Below, piece by piece: positions 12,228 through 25,016 of a stretch of 25,016 nucleotides of DNA. Source of the stretch: a virus; IMG/VR virus record IMGVR_UViG_3300032006_000077, positions 1-25,016 of that record. One strand, given 5' to 3'. Under the pieces are notes generated by a model. The model had not been told where the DNA came from and made no database searches. It worked only from the letters and a program-made list of their open reading frames with translations. Position numbers and translations under genes: made by a program. Each line of letters opens with the position of its first letter. The first letter of the stretch is position 1.

Positions 12228-14171
12228 TTAAGCGTTAGCTGCGTAGGTTAAGGTATGAGCACCTGAAGTACCTTCAAGTGACTTAAATCCTAATGCCTGG
12301 CTAGCGACCAGAACATTACGCTGCTTACCAACTTCGTAGTCAGTTTCAATGCTAACACCCTTGAGCCTTCCAACAACATAGCGGCTAGTGTTTATAATAG
12401 CAGCTGCGGTACTTTGGTTAGCAGCAACCATTTCCGCGGAAACAATAAGTGGCGAACCAAATATAGTACCCATCATGCCGTTGATATTAGTGGCCATATC
12501 AGAGCCAGCCTTATCTACAGTCACAAACTTTCCGTCCTGTGCAAGTAGATCATAGTAGGCATCGATAGTAACAACGTAAACAATATCAGCAGGATTAACT
12601 GCATATTTGCCCATTGCTGCACGACCAACTTCAAGCATAGTGTCTGCGAATGCAGGTGCACCGTCTTGTTGTGCAGTACAAGCTGCTGTAGATGCTTGTA
12701 GCCCGCTGCCTTTATCGTTTCCGTCTCCGCCTGCAATACCAGCAGTAGGTCCACTAGTACCGAGAAGAATCATCTTATCGATTGCTATAGCGTGCGAACG
12801 TGCAAGAGCAGAAGTAAGCATTGGTAGGAATGAAACCAAAGAAGTCTCATCTATATTGTTATCAATATAGGTACCAGCTGCCAATCGCTCGGTTTGTAAG
12901 ACATTATTAGTAATGTCATAATCACCATCAGTTCCGCCATTATCAATACGCTGAGACGTAGTATCAACGCTAAAAGCTGTACCGAAAGTTGCAGCTGCAA
13001 CGTCTGCCGCGAAAGGCATAACTGTTGCTCCTGAAGTTACAGGAATTTCACGGAACAAGGGAAGAAGCTTAGTTTCAAGCGCAACTTCTGTTTCAAACTG
13101 CTGACTTACAGTAACATCAACGTTACCAGAGGAAGTTCTTGTACCAAAATCTACACCTGCCTTCTCAAAGACTTCCTTGCCAAGGTCAGTATCCCAACCT
13201 TTCTTGGTGATTGCTCCGTAGATTTTTGCCTCCAGAGCTTGCTTTGCAAAGTCTTCTTTGCTCTGAGAACCAAACTCAAACTTACGGCTACGCATAGCTT
13301 CGAGTTCGTCAGCCTTCTCTTTAACGTCGGCTTCGTACTTCTTAACAAGCTCATTGATTTCTTCAGCTTTTGCAGCTTCGAATTCTTTTTGCATGTCTTG
13401 TACAAGACGGTCAGCTCCTGACTCTACGCCAGTTTTGATAGCCGTCTTGACTTCTTCGTCCTGCTGAGCCTTGGCTTCTGCTTCCGCAGCAGCTTTCTCT
13501 TCAGCTTCTTTTTGTACAGCCTCATCGGCTGCTTTTTGCTCGGCTTGCTTCATTGCAATTTTAGCAGCAGTTTCCTCAGCTACTTTTTTAGCAAAAGCTT
13601 CCAAGTCAACGGGTTGTTGTGTCTCTTCAGACATCGTTATCTCCTTTTGGACTTGCGCCCCGTCACTATTAGTGAAAGTTTTTTTGAAATCTTCGTACTC
13701 CTCCATGGAGTCGAAGGACTTCGCCAGTGAAAAAGTAGCTGTTTGGTTACAAGGTACAGATACTACTGATACCTCAAACAACTCAGCGTCCTTTATTCTT
13801 AATCCGTCGGTTTCCTCTATATAATCAGCATCCTTGACTCGGAAACCAACAGAAAAGGCTCCAAGGACACCGTCTTTAACTAGTTCGGCTACATCTTTAG
13901 CCGCCTTACTAATTTTTGCCGTTAACTCAAGACCTCCATCAGTAGCTTTTACTTTAGTAGCTCTACCAATCGGTCTATTGTAATCATGATTGAAAAGAAT
14001 TATAGGGTTCTTCTCGAAGTTATTTAACCCACCTTTAGTCCACGCATCCGCTGAAATAGAATCACCCGCGCGATCAAAATCAGTTGTACTGGCCATACCT
14101 CTGATTTTAATACTGCCATCCTCATCAGTATGAGACTTAAAAGTAGAGGTTAAATTAAATACTTTTTCCAT
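12228..14171 (-). CDS. Fused prohead protease - scaffold - major capsid protein
   Basis: A 647-residue ORF with three parts. Residues 1-150 are an HK97-type (U35) prohead protease: candidate catalytic His62 in 'FNHDYNRPIG', Ser107 in 'GAFSVGF', and a 'LFEVSVVSVPCN' strand at 131-142. Residues about 180-295 are Ala/Glu/Lys-rich coiled coil, matching the scaffold (delta) region. From about 300 to the end is an HK97-fold capsid ('PLFREIPVTSGATVMPF', 'DKMILLGTSGP', 'GKYAVNPADIVYVV', 'GTIFGSPLIVSAEM'). Proteases and capsids are separate genes in HK97, but fusions are known. The start has a strong GGGAGGAG ribosome-binding site. An internal in-frame start with a perfect ribosome-binding site begins at residue 180, so a scaffold-capsid protein of 468 residues is probably the main product and the full fusion a minor one. 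A terminator follows. Confidence 0.93.
   Translation of the reverse strand: MEKVFNLTSTFKSHTDEDGSIKIRGMASTTDFDRAGDSISADAWTKGGLNNFEKNPIILFNHDYNRPIGRATKVKATDGGLELTAKISKAAKDVAELVKDGVLGAFSVGFRVKDADYIEETDGLRIKDAELFEVSVVSVPCNQTATFSLAKSFDSMEEYEDFKKTFTNSDGAQVQKEITMSEETQQPVDLEAFAKKVAEETAAKIAMKQAEQKAADEAVQKEAEEKAAAEAEAKAQQDEEVKTAIKTGVESGADRLVQDMQKEFEAAKAEEINELVKKYEADVKEKADELEAMRSRKFEFGSQSKEDFAKQALEAKIYGAITKKGWDTDLGKEVFEKAGVDFGTRTSSGNVDVTVSQQFETEVALETKLLPLFREIPVTSGATVMPFAADVAAATFGTAFSVDTTSQRIDNGGTDGDYDITNNVLQTERLAAGTYIDNNIDETSLVSFLPMLTSALARSHAIAIDKMILLGTSGPTAGIAGGDGNDKGSGLQASTAACTAQQDGAPAFADTMLEVGRAAMGKYAVNPADIVYVVTIDAYYDLLAQDGKFVTVDKAGSDMATNINGMMGTIFGSPLIVSAEMVAANQSTAAAIINTSRYVVGRLKGVSIETDYEVGKQRNVLVASQALGFKSLEGTSGAHTLTYAANA
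13632..13646 (-). promoter_or_regulatory. Internal ribosome-binding site and start codon for scaffold-capsid protein
   Basis: Minus strand AAGGAG (13646-13641), 6-base spacer ATAACG, ATG (13634-13632). It is in frame with the protease-capsid ORF at Met180 and lies exactly between the protease domain and the coiled-coil scaffold ('MSEETQQPVDLEAF'). The same ATAACx spacing is seen at the major tail gene. This would let capsid be made in excess over protease. Confidence 0.8.
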
Positions 14172-16068: not shown

Positions 16069-17373
16069 CTAAAAACTTGTTGCTGAAGTCTCAAATGAGT
16101 ATAATGCATACCGTAACGCGTCGGCCATGTGAGATGCGTAATTGTGTTTCGGTTTCTCTTTCATTAGGTTAGGATTGGGGTCCCATTGGTATTGGTCCAA
16201 CGCAGATAATGTTTCTTTACATCGCTGATCAACAAGTAATTTATCATTGTCCACTATTCCTGCTACCTGTGCAATTCCATCTAAAACTGATTTCTTTGCG
16301 TTAATAGTTGATATGTCATAGTTCTGAGCAAAATCGAAACGGGTCTGCTGCGCAGCGGAATCAATATAAATATAGTCTATATTCCATTTGTCAATCATGC
16401 CTTGTATTTCCTTGGCATGCTTCTCCGTAGTTTGCTCCGCATCAAGGTACTCATCTACTAAGTAGAACTGCTGTTCGTCCCAGTCGTAGGCGATTACACA
16501 AAAAGCCGTCGGATCTCTGTAACCCACATCGAGTCCGGCAAATACGTCCATTTTTGATACATCGATTTCTTCAAAGTTTCCGATACACTCTTCGTGGTTG
16601 AAAGTCCAGATTTGACCTTCGTAAGTATTAAAGTCCGCTTCGTATTCTTGTCTAAATTCGGCCTCGGACATAGACTTTCTAGCTTCCGCAATATCCATTT
16701 CAGACATGCGCGGATTATCCTTATAAGTAGCCCTAATAGAAGCCCATTCCGAGAAGTCATCTTGAAATCCCCTATAGAAAAACTCTGAAAACCAGTTATT
16801 CTTTCCTCTAGGCGTACTTATAAAGATAGCCTTTGAATTGTCTTTATCGAGTGTTGGTCGCAGAGCTACATTAAAAGCATCCCTCCCATCAGCCAGAGCT
16901 GCCTCATCAAATATAATAAGATCATAGGAGCGGCCAACACAACTATCCACTTGATTAACACTTCCCATTCGGATCGTGGACCCATTAGTTAACTCTATTA
17001 CTTTATCCTTAGCATTGTCTTTTGCAACTTCTAAATCGAAATGCTTTATCAGATTTCTCTGTAAATCAAAAGAAATCTGAGACAAGGCATAGTTAGGGGA
17101 CATTATGAGTATGTTTGAGTTGGGCACTAATGATACCAGCTGCCCTATTATATTTGCGATGTAGGTTTTACCCTGCCTTCTCGAAACAGCCGCACATACA
17201 AAACGGTATTTCGGATTGTTGATCGCGTTGATAATCGCCACCTGCGAAGCAAGTGGCGTTACGCCGAGTAGTTCCAAATATGGATCTACTGGTAATTTGA
17301 GAAACCTTGTCTCAGATTGTAAGTCTAATAGTTGGTCGGATATTACATCCTTCCTACTAATTTCAATCGCCAT
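16069..17373 (-). CDS. terL: Terminase large subunit
   Basis: A 434-residue packaging motor with all expected parts. ATPase: Walker A-like 'SRRQGKT' at 64-70, Walker B 'LIIFDE' at 152-157 with catalytic Glu157, and the coupling motif 'FISTPRG' at 184-190. RNase H-like nuclease: 'FAGLDVGYRDPTA' at 278-290 (Asp282), 'YIYIDSA' at 334-340 (Asp338), and 'HMADALRYALY' at 415-425 (Asp418), the three acidic metal ligands. The start has an AGAGG ribosome-binding site 5 bases upstream. It pumps DNA into the head and cuts genome ends with the small subunit and probably the adjacent HNH protein. Unusually, the small subunit gene is about 1.8 kb upstream, separated by small membrane-protein genes. Confidence 0.97.
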   Translation of the reverse strand: MAIEISRKDVISDQLLDLQSETRFLKLPVDPYLELLGVTPLASQVAIINAINNPKYRFVCAAVSRRQGKTYIANIIGQLVSLVPNSNILIMSPNYALSQISFDLQRNLIKHFDLEVAKDNAKDKVIELTNGSTIRMGSVNQVDSCVGRSYDLIIFDEAALADGRDAFNVALRPTLDKDNSKAIFISTPRGKNNWFSEFFYRGFQDDFSEWASIRATYKDNPRMSEMDIAEARKSMSEAEFRQEYEADFNTYEGQIWTFNHEECIGNFEEIDVSKMDVFAGLDVGYRDPTAFCVIAYDWDEQQFYLVDEYLDAEQTTEKHAKEIQGMIDKWNIDYIYIDSAAQQTRFDFAQNYDISTINAKKSVLDGIAQVAGIVDNDKLLVDQRCKETLSALDQYQWDPNPNLMKEKPKHNYASHMADALRYALYSFETSATSF

Positions 17374-22943: not shown

Positions 22944-23234
22944 ATGTCTAGCTATACTGAAAAAATGGTCGCTCAAATGATGGATTCGGCTCCCATCACT
23001 AGGACTGTCGCGGATTCTCTCGCGTCAGAATTTGGGTTGTCGGTTCGTTCCGTCATCTCTAAGGCTGTGCTTCTCGGCCTGTACCAGAAGCCAGAAGCAA
23101 AAACTGCTTCTGCAAAATCCACCAAAAAAGAATTGGTGGAAGCTATCGAGAAAGCCCTACAGGGTGAATCTCTCGATGGCTTAGAGGGTGCGACCACTCG
23201 CTCCCTGTCTGCCTTGCTCATGAGCATATCATGA
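22944..23234 (+). CDS. Small HTH-like putative DNA-binding protein
   Basis: A 96-residue protein with AGGAG 6 bases before the ATG. Residues 1-50 ('MSSYTEKMVAQMMDSAP', 'TVADSLASEFGLSVRSVISK') look like a helix-turn-helix: helix, 'EFGLSVRSVI' turn and recognition helix, as in region-4-like sigma and resolvase HTHs. Very similar short proteins starting '(S)YTe..V..m' with 'gkSVrSvisKl...GvY' occur widely in T4-like cyanophages and other aquatic phages. The C-terminal part ('STKKELVEAIEKALQGESLD', 'GLEGATTRSLSALL') is a small helical domain conserved with it. Candidate regulator of phage or host transcription; no experimental role is known to me. Ends in ATGA overlap with the next gene. Confidence 0.7.
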   Translation: MSSYTEKMVAQMMDSAPITRTVADSLASEFGLSVRSVISKAVLLGLYQKPEAKTASAKSTKKELVEAIEKALQGESLDGLEGATTRSLSALLMSIS

Positions 23235-23434
23235 GCTTGGTGGCTCGCCTCGGATGGATGGGCGCGGCTTGCATGGCCGCCGCTCCATTCGTCATTGATA
23301 CGCCAGAGGGTAAACTGTTGGCTATCACTGGCTTGGCTTTGCTAATGTTACAGGCTATTGAATCCCGACTCTGGAATTTGGTTGCTTTAAATTCACTAGG
23401 AATAATAGGATACTTTTATGCTTTTTATTTTTGA
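23231..23434 (+). CDS. Small membrane protein, 67 residues
   Basis: The ATG overlaps the upstream stop (ATGA), so translation is coupled. Three short hydrophobic segments are visible: residues about 6-22 ('LGWMGAACMAAAPFVI'), about 29-43 ('LLAITGLALLMLQAI') and about 48-67 ('NLVALNSLGIIGYFYAFYF'). The motif order 'GW.Ga...APF.IdT..GK.L.i.GL..L..QA...RL.NLv.LN..GIIGY' is internally regular, and I associate it with small membrane proteins of aquatic phages, without a proven function. The end overlaps the HAD gene by 17 bases. Confidence 0.7.
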   Translation: MSLVARLGWMGAACMAAAPFVIDTPEGKLLAITGLALLMLQAIESRLWNLVALNSLGIIGYFYAFYF

Positions 23435-23894
23435 TTTAGATGGGACGGTTATAGACTCATCCCATCGACAAATAACCCGCGCGGATGGTTCGCTTGATCT
23501 CGCGCATTGGGTGCGAAATAACACACCCGAAAAAATCGCCGCTGATACGCTTTTACCGTTGGCGGCATCATGGAAAACTATTAACCGAAAGCGCGACCAA
23601 ATCGCAATAATGACGGCTAGGGTTATCGGAAAAAATGATCTTAAATTTTTGCGGGATAATGGCTTAGAATATGATTATATTTATAGCCGCGCATTTGGTG
23701 ACACTACACCGGATGACATCTTAAAAAAGCGCATGATTTTCCGATTACGGTTTGATATGAAAAAATCGCTTAACTGGCTACGTCATAATAGCTACATGTT
23801 TGACGATAACAATAGCGTTCGCAAATGCTTGACTGGTTTGGGTATTCGATGCTATAATCCCACTAATTATAACGAGGTAAGAAAAAATGCTTAA
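23418..23894 (+). CDS. HAD-superfamily phosphatase (phage type)
   Basis: A 158-residue protein with all four HAD motifs: motif I 'FDLDGTVIDSS' at residues 5-15 (nucleophile Asp6, acid Asp8), motif II 'IMTAR' (Thr about 66), a motif III lysine in 'DDILKKRMI' (about 105-110), and motif IV 'MFDDNNS' (about 131-137). The cap is minimal, as in the 3'-phosphatase part of T4 polynucleotide kinase and in many small phage HADs. Likely substrates are nucleotides or nucleic-acid 3'-phosphates, but the specificity cannot be read. An AGGA ribosome-binding site lies 7 bases before the ATG. Overlaps with genes on both sides put it in one operon with the PPK2 gene. Confidence 0.85.
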   Translation: MLFIFDLDGTVIDSSHRQITRADGSLDLAHWVRNNTPEKIAADTLLPLAASWKTINRKRDQIAIMTARVIGKNDLKFLRDNGLEYDYIYSRAFGDTTPDDILKKRMIFRLRFDMKKSLNWLRHNSYMFDDNNSVRKCLTGLGIRCYNPTNYNEVRKNA

Positions 23895-24447
23895 ATCTAC
23901 GGACACTCCAAACGCGATAGACGGCTCACCGTTTGACGATTTTGGTTTTAACTACTTATGGCGGTTGCATGGTATGGGCGTTCACGTTCCCGCTTTTCGC
24001 GGAATGTGCGTCATAAAAAACGGTTTCGCCAAATACTGTCGTTCTGGCGGTTTCTCTGGCGTTGAATCTCGCATCATCGAAACGCTACGCAATATCGAGG
24101 AATGTCACGGCTTGCCCTCTGGCGTATTACGAGCGGAATTACTCGCGCTCACTACTGGCTCATTTGATGAGACATTATCTAGCGAACAATTTTTCCACAA
24201 GAAAAATAAATCATGGCGGCTTGCCGGATTATTCCGCGATTTAAAACTAAAAAATCAAAAGCCGGTTGGCGGTCATTCTGAATTTTTCAATATGCCCGAA
24301 AAAATGGCAAAAGCAAAATTTGCAAATGCCCAAAGACAGGCAAATAAAAAATTTGGTTTAGAAATCGTAAATTGGAAACGAAAAACCGGAATTCACGGTT
24401 GCCCTCTACCGCTAGAAAATCCTGAAGAAAAAGGCTATGCACTATGA
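23887..24447 (+). CDS. Hypothetical protein between HAD phosphatase and PPK2
   Basis: A 186-residue protein. The start (GAGGTAAG upstream) overlaps the HAD stop by 8 bases, and the stop overlaps the PPK2 ATG as ATGA. I recognise no family. The first 60 residues are aromatic/glycine-rich ('FDDFGFNYLWRLHGMGVHVP'). Residues about 60-110 form a helical, possibly recognition-type segment ('GVESRIIETLRNIEECHGLP', 'GVLRAELLALTTGSFDE'). The C-terminal 70 are lysine-rich. The tight overlaps imply co-expression, and perhaps a shared pathway, with the two phosphoryl-transfer enzymes. It has no membrane segment or signal peptide. Confidence 0.75.
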   Translation: MLKSTDTPNAIDGSPFDDFGFNYLWRLHGMGVHVPAFRGMCVIKNGFAKYCRSGGFSGVESRIIETLRNIEECHGLPSGVLRAELLALTTGSFDETLSSEQFFHKKNKSWRLAGLFRDLKLKNQKPVGGHSEFFNMPEKMAKAKFANAQRQANKKFGLEIVNWKRKTGIHGCPLPLENPEEKGYAL

Positions 24448-25016
24448 AAAAATTACAAGCACAACTCAACCAAATCGCGGAAGCAAATAAAAAGAAAATC
24501 GCGGTTGTTTTAGAGGGACGCGATACTGCCGGAAAATCTAGCACAATTCGCGCGGTTACTGAATATTTAAATCCGCAATGGTATAGCATTGTCCCATCCA
24601 CTAAGCCATCGGTTTCGGCAATGGCGAATTGGTGGCAATGGTGGAACGGGAAAATGCCCGCGCAAGGTCAAATCGTTTTCTACGATAGGAGCTGGTATTC
24701 TCGCGCGATGGTTCAACAAATGAATGGCTGGTGCTCTCAAAACCAATACAAACAATTTTTAGATAGATATGAATATTGGGAAAATGAGGTTCAGCATGAT
24801 GTTACTTTTATTAAATTCTGGCTCTCGATTTCTGAGGCGGAACAGCGCAAGCGAATACAGGCACGGAAAATTTCACCACTCACATATTGGAAATTTTCCG
24901 AGAATGACGAAAATGCGCTTTCCCATTATGACAGAATGACGCTTCTGAAAGAAAAGGTTGTCGGCGAGGATTGGCACGTTGTCAATTACAACGACAAGCA
25001 AAAAGGAATCGAGCGA
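24444..25016 (+). CDS. Polyphosphate kinase 2 (PPK2) family kinase, 3' end cut by window
   Basis: 191 codons are visible with no stop. PPK2 enzymes transfer phosphate between polyphosphate and nucleoside mono- or diphosphates. Visible motifs: Walker A 'EGRDTAGKS' at 24-32 (canonical EGRDAAGKG), 'VTEYLNP' at 38-44, Walker B 'VFYDRSWYSRAMV' at 78-90 (canonical FDRSWYNRAGV), and the lid 'KFWLSISEAEQRKR' followed by 'SPLTYWKFSENDENAL'. The near-terminal 'WHVVNYNDKQ' matches the usual 'WyvV.addK' strand, so little is missing. Differences from cellular PPK2: the usual E-R-x-x-W-Y-F-Q-R-Y segment is 'AMANWWQWW', 'GEI' is 'GQI', and the N-terminus is about 40 residues shorter than many. The acceptor (NMP or NDP) may therefore be atypical. 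It is last in an overlapping operon. Confidence 0.9.
   Translation, partial: MKKLQAQLNQIAEANKKKIAVVLEGRDTAGKSSTIRAVTEYLNPQWYSIVPSTKPSVSAMANWWQWWNGKMPAQGQIVFYDRSWYSRAMVQQMNGWCSQNQYKQFLDRYEYWENEVQHDVTFIKFWLSISEAEQRKRIQARKISPLTYWKFSENDENALSHYDRMTLLKEKVVGEDWHVVNYNDKQKGIER

Follow-up and report, generated by a model that had tools for sequence, protein, structure and literature searches.

Phages are normally taken to make their dNTPs with kinases that use ATP. In comparable T5-like phages (Demerecviridae), the enzyme DNMK (PF21448) has the same role that we propose below for a viral PPK2, although it belongs to a different family of P-loop kinases and depends on ATP. The PPK2 family is divided into classes I, II and III according to whether the signature position after Walker B holds Asn, Gly or Glu, and some members accept deoxynucleotides, namely dAMP and dADP in class III and dAMP and dGMP in class II (PMC8776046). 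In the Francisella enzyme FtPPK2, R174 and R178 of the lid motif R-x2-3-R are proposed polyphosphate (polyP) ligands (PMC4748334), and changing K66, R118 or R178 to Ala weakens polyP binding and activity (PMC8776046). On the acceptor side, R106 of EbPPK2 contacts N7 of the purine (PMC12257356). Phages are not mentioned in the 2022 review of the family (PMC8776046). Virus-encoded ppk1 and ppk2 from sediments and activated sludge are listed in PMC13188868 as polyP-accumulation genes, with a citation of Li et al. (2025, Water Res 268:122678). The locus analysed here had been put forward in a preliminary description as a phage-encoded PPK2. With viral ppk2 already reported from metagenomes, the gene as such is not new; however, in the open-access literature we found no description of the subfamily to which it belongs, of its altered pocket or of its mutual exclusion with DNMK.

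The gene is located at 24444-25016 on the plus strand of the 25,016-nucleotide stretch of viral DNA analysed (the window), as an ATG-initiated ORF of 191 codons whose 3' end is open at the contig edge. Because the nearest relative (L002, 97% identical) is complete at 202 residues, about the length found in relatives, the window protein is short of only about 11 C-terminal residues. Its assignment draws on Pfam, a phmmer search of the PDB, an AF2 model, Foldseek and dN/dS ratios. The ORF matches PF03976 with 144.2 bits (E 6e-42, cut-off 22.3), whereas thymidylate kinase (PF02223) reaches 21.3 bits, under its cut-off of 27, over 34 residues around Walker A. The NCBIfam model PPK2_P_aer (TIGR03707) gives 164.9 bits, which is below its equivalog cut-off of 301.8, and all 18 matches in the PDB are PPK2s, with 3czp at the top (141 bits). 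The AF2 model, built from a 57-sequence alignment, has a mean pLDDT of 92.9, and its best Foldseek match is 5ll0, the Francisella PPK2 with polyphosphate (TMq 0.91, rmsd 2.0), while viral thymidylate kinases reach a TMq of only about 0.5. Pfam score and fold comparison together rule out that the protein is a thymidylate kinase. We are close to certain that the ORF encodes a true PPK2-family protein with the PPK2 fold, and the profile search and structure prediction thus bear out the family proposed at first. A PPK2-like protein of a marine phage in BFVD (A0A8D9CF65), 43% identical, carries the name thymidylate kinase, which is probably a misannotation.

With class I PPK2s (FtPPK2, 4YEG/5LL0/5LLB; SmPPK2, 3CZQ/6DZG) the viral protein has in common the fold, Walker A and B, the lid Arg pair, K187 and the position in the tree. 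It is 34% identical to them and, with about 200 residues, smaller than the 240-290 of the solved chains. To place individual residues, we compared 51 non-redundant viral with 77 cellular PPK2s, using FtPPK2 (Ft) numbering after PMC4748334. Walker A, Walker B and lid follow one another in the PPK2 order originally reported, at residues 25-32, 79-85 and 137-150. Walker A (GRDTAGKS, 24516-24539, plus strand) contains K31 and D27, which correspond to K66 and D62 and are invariant across all 51 viral and 77 cellular sequences; Walker B of the window protein reads FYDRSWY, and GRDTAGK and DRS both occur in every viral sequence. The lid module (24852-24893, plus strand) consists of R137-x3-R141 followed by PLTYWK at residues 145-150, and R137, R141 and K150, the counterparts of R174, R178 and K187, are likewise invariant in both sets. 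Altogether, D62, K66, D117, R118, R174, R178, K187 and K228 are kept in all 51 viral sequences, so that, as far as can be judged from sequence, the polyP-binding basic residues have for the most part been retained, and polyP is probably the phosphate donor. Two positions depart from this pattern: the lid residue K184 is Thr in 40 of the 51 viral sequences and the C-terminal R232 is missing from 33, and polyP binding may therefore be weaker. These changes, along with the very long stem of the viral clade in the tree, would suit a PPK2-fold kinase that had abandoned polyP and phosphorylated a nucleotide from ATP or a different donor, in effect an analogue of DNMK from another branch of the fold. 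The invariance of R118, R174, R178, K187 and K228 and the best fold match, which is polyP-bound FtPPK2, argue against such a derivative, and we regard it as improbable. With the fold and the chemistry of PPK2, the viral enzyme is a variant of that family rather than a separate kind.

The acceptor side presents a different picture. The acceptor segment of the window protein (AMANWWQWW, residues 59-67, 24618-24644, plus strand) has a one-residue deletion and has lost the Glu and Arg that correspond to E94 and R102. E94 is found in 76 of the 77 cellular PPK2s and R102 in all of them; neither occurs in any of the 51 viral sequences. By our own count, R102 would occupy the position of EbPPK2 R106, 12 residues past the conserved Pro. 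The WWQWW substitution that had suggested a changed substrate is present at residues 63-67 and is a trait of this lineage, with WLxYW-like sequences in relatives. The signature position following Walker B (FYDRSWYS, residues 79-86, 24678-24701, plus strand) is occupied by S86, and Ser is found there in 51/51 viral sequences instead of the Asn, Gly or Glu of the three classes. E127 is replaced by Gln and M130 by Asn throughout the viral set, and each of the five positions E94, R102, N122, E127 and M130 is substituted in all 51. Read from the alignment, the acceptor pocket of the viral clade is rebuilt as a fixed property of the clade, in agreement with the changed pocket proposed earlier. The differences from class I enzymes are thus the Ser signature, the deletion, the replacement of E94, R102, E127 and M130 and the usual Thr at K184. 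Class II enzymes (PA3455, 3CZP; LfPPK2-II, 9H8J/K/L, solved with AMP and with TMP) resemble the viral form in having a small signature residue, Gly as against Ser, but they form a separate branch of the tree and, unlike the viral clade, retain the Glu and Arg of the acceptor segment. This holds for the class II enzyme solved with TMP (9h8l), which is among the Foldseek matches. The pocket change alone therefore does not predict pyrimidine acceptors.

A scan of IMG/VR with the window protein returned 40 loci, and the best 80 of 300 relatives from a profile scan, at 54-97% identity, were taken for analysis; PPK2s of the same clade are found on 75 or more additional IMG/VR contigs. The carriers are marine bacterial viruses, distant kin of phage T5. 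In nine close pairs of viral ppk2 genes dN/dS is 0.05-0.13, from which it follows that the gene is under purifying selection to work. The viral PPK2s are monophyletic (100/100), with a stem branch 1.91 changes per site long, and group with class I sequences (100/99), apart from the class II and III branches. Immediately adjoining it (100/94) are PPK2s of SAR86, KB13 and Porticoccaceae and of a 635-kb marine phage. The joint clade of viral and SAR86-type sequences is still recovered (100/95) in a tree without class II and III sequences, and the acceptor-segment deletion is found in 51/51 viral sequences, in 21/21 SAR86-type sequences, in the megaphage and in L226, an Asn-type member of the same clade; both observations counter a long-branch artefact in the placement. 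The closest cellular PPK2 is about 43-45% identical, the lower value applying to the matched segment and the higher to the alignment. The SAR86-type and megaphage (LR745206) proteins, at 37-45% identity to the viral ones, are the closest relatives and retain E94, R102, E127 and mostly M130, while the signature of the bacterial ones is Thr or Ser, near the viral Ser. Matches among cultured phages in INPHARED are at most 40% identical, and none of those compared by sequence has the viral signature. Class I-type PPK2s are also found in megaphages and in Moraxella phage Mcat6.

Three side observations concern these relatives. The PPK2 of megaphage LR745206.1 (L228, 634780 bp) has canonical pocket residues. 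In SAR86 and other marine gammaproteobacteria (L042-L075), the signature residue is mostly Thr and in a few cases Ser, which lies outside all three published classes. The PPK2 of an unverified record named Pseudomonas phage Y15 (L231, OQ572415.1) matches host PA3455 (3czp) where the two can be compared, suggesting host DNA.

Because the viral clade is nested among class I PPK2s, and class I enzymes phosphorylate ADP and GDP (PMC8776046), the protein might simply regenerate ATP and GTP from polyP during infection and have no special role in making DNA precursors. Against this stand the loss, in all 51 viral sequences, of the Arg at the purine N7 contact position together with its companion Glu, the Ser in place of the class I Asn and, as described below, the absence of DNMK exactly where PPK2 is present. 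We consider such energy charging unlikely, but place it ahead of the ATP-using derivative, which in turn ranks above polyP synthesis and, last, an end-processing pair with a HAD phosphatase.

The gene neighbourhood bears on the last two alternatives. As first described, the gene belongs to a phage operon: the window also contains terminase, portal, protease-capsid and tape-measure genes, and the terminase large subunit (16069-17373, minus strand) is about 49% identical to those of Demerecviridae. These structural genes, and the more than 75 contigs of the same clade with conserved neighbours, rule out that the contig is host contamination. The prohead protease and the major capsid protein are fused in a single 647-residue protein (12228-14171, minus strand; phrog_80 and phrog_617, with NF045541 below cut-off). 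PPK2 is the last of a run of five plus-strand genes that starts at 22944 and in which neighbours overlap by 4-17 nt. The run begins with a small DNA-binding-protein-like gene (22944-23234; phrog_1725, E 1.2e-5) and a conserved small ORF of 67 residues (23231-23434), whose neighbour cluster is found in 54 of 81 loci, followed by a HAD phosphatase (23418-23894; phrog_415, E 3.5e-19; PF25109 at 26.5 bits, slightly under cut-off). A 186-residue protein (23887-24447), which overlaps the PPK2 start by 4 nt, has no match in Pfam, PHROG or NCBIfam; many relatives have a DnaQ-like exonuclease gene (phrog_20187, phrog_192) in its place before PPK2. Of the viral loci with 2 kb or more of upstream sequence, 55 are distinct; one or the other of these two genes lies within 4 kb of PPK2 in 41 of them and the HAD gene in 49.

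The HAD protein is homologous both to PNKP phosphatase domains and to T5-like genes annotated as deoxynucleoside-5'-monophosphatase (dmp), the latter being found by tblastn with E 1e-13. In contig G039, the PPK2 stop is where a HAD_PNKP gene with a strong match (151 bits) starts (L254, 7558-8193 and 8193-8624). This arrangement, within a few bases, and the frequent presence of HAD near PPK2 raise the possibility that the two proteins are the separate halves of a kinase-phosphatase that acts on the ends of nucleic acids, in the manner of T4 polynucleotide kinase-phosphatase. However, PPK2 matched the polynucleotide 5'-kinase family in none of the searches, the window HAD is nearer to the T5-like dmp genes, and T5-like phages have HAD without PPK2, so that we hold this pairing to be the least probable of the alternatives. 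Hardly more probable is that the enzyme makes polyP or drains that of the host, altering phosphate storage or stress signalling, with any change in nucleotides secondary. The PPK2 reaction can run in both directions, and in some class I enzymes the balance is towards making polyP (PMC8776046), but no phosphate-metabolism genes were recognised among the neighbours, the identified nearby genes are nucleotide or DNA genes, and the change is situated in the acceptor pocket and not in the polyP site.

The larger PPK2 contigs show which other replication and precursor functions these phages encode. They have a family A DNA polymerase and a 5' exonuclease, along with a gene for an NAD-dependent ligase next to which, in our reading, is a second ligase-like piece. 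PPK2 phages of 71-101 kb encode ribonucleotide reductase, with the large chain in G028 and G039 and a Pfam-confirmed small chain in G039, and sometimes ThyX, which is present in 5 of 14 PPK2 contigs. DNMK (PF21448) was found in none of 22 PPK2 contigs, mostly fragments, but in all four Demerecviridae-like controls; conversely, PPK2 is absent from these four T5-like phages and present in the seven PPK2 contigs tested alongside. The 22 PPK2 contigs also gave no TMK above cut-off, and a deoxynucleoside kinase (dNK) had no recognisable match in the PPK2 contigs. NDK was not recognised in them either, but its absence carries no weight because the T5-like controls also lack it. With DNMK absent where PPK2 is present, in a context of RNR and ThyX, the simplest account is that PPK2 has taken over the role of DNMK. 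This replacement is drawn from absence in incomplete contigs and from four controls, and the host could supply kinases.

We therefore arrive at a model in which a phage-specific PPK2 subfamily would transfer phosphate from host polyP to deoxynucleoside mono- or diphosphates, perhaps those of pyrimidines, in the direction of nucleotide synthesis, and would take the place of the ATP-dependent DNMK/dnk of T5-like phages as a source of DNA precursors. For the acceptor, genome context tips the balance slightly towards a deoxynucleotide. Taken as a whole, a polyP-driven (d)NMP or (d)NDP kinase that replaces an ATP-dependent dNMP kinase has, in our estimation, close to an even chance of being correct. 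We infer polyP as donor, a deoxynucleotide as acceptor, synthesis as direction and true functional replacement as the most likely combination, and the first reading of polyP-driven phage nucleotide synthesis is to this extent partly supported. More tentatively, we speculate that a lineage of marine phages whose packaging and replication genes are T5-like has swapped an ATP-dependent deoxynucleotide kinase for a polyP-driven one, and that the latter may represent a fourth functional PPK2 class, with a Ser signature and without the Glu-Arg pair. Selection maintains this putative polyP kinase as a fixed trait of many marine phage genomes, in precisely those from which the customary dNMP kinase is missing. 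If the model is correct, phage replication would be tied to host polyP stores, which is relevant in the phosphorus-poor ocean, and the PPK2 family would gain a class that acts on a new acceptor; a PPK2 that prefers deoxynucleotides would be useful for enzymatic dNTP synthesis.

Finally, we considered 2-aminoadenine (Z) DNA as a reason for an unusual kinase and rejected it, as PurZ was absent from 12 contigs. G027 encodes a MazZ-like dATP/dGTP diphosphohydrolase (PF18909; L248:15300-15656, minus strand) without a detectable PurZ. Two PPK2 phages carry, on the minus strand, a gene for an IscU/NifU-N iron-sulphur scaffold (PF01592, about 180 bits; L240:6029-6409 and L248:13512-13892). In G027 there is also a run of plus-strand ORFs (L249:2-5250) whose N-termini, judged by eye, have the look of glycosyltransferases or sugar-modifying enzymes.
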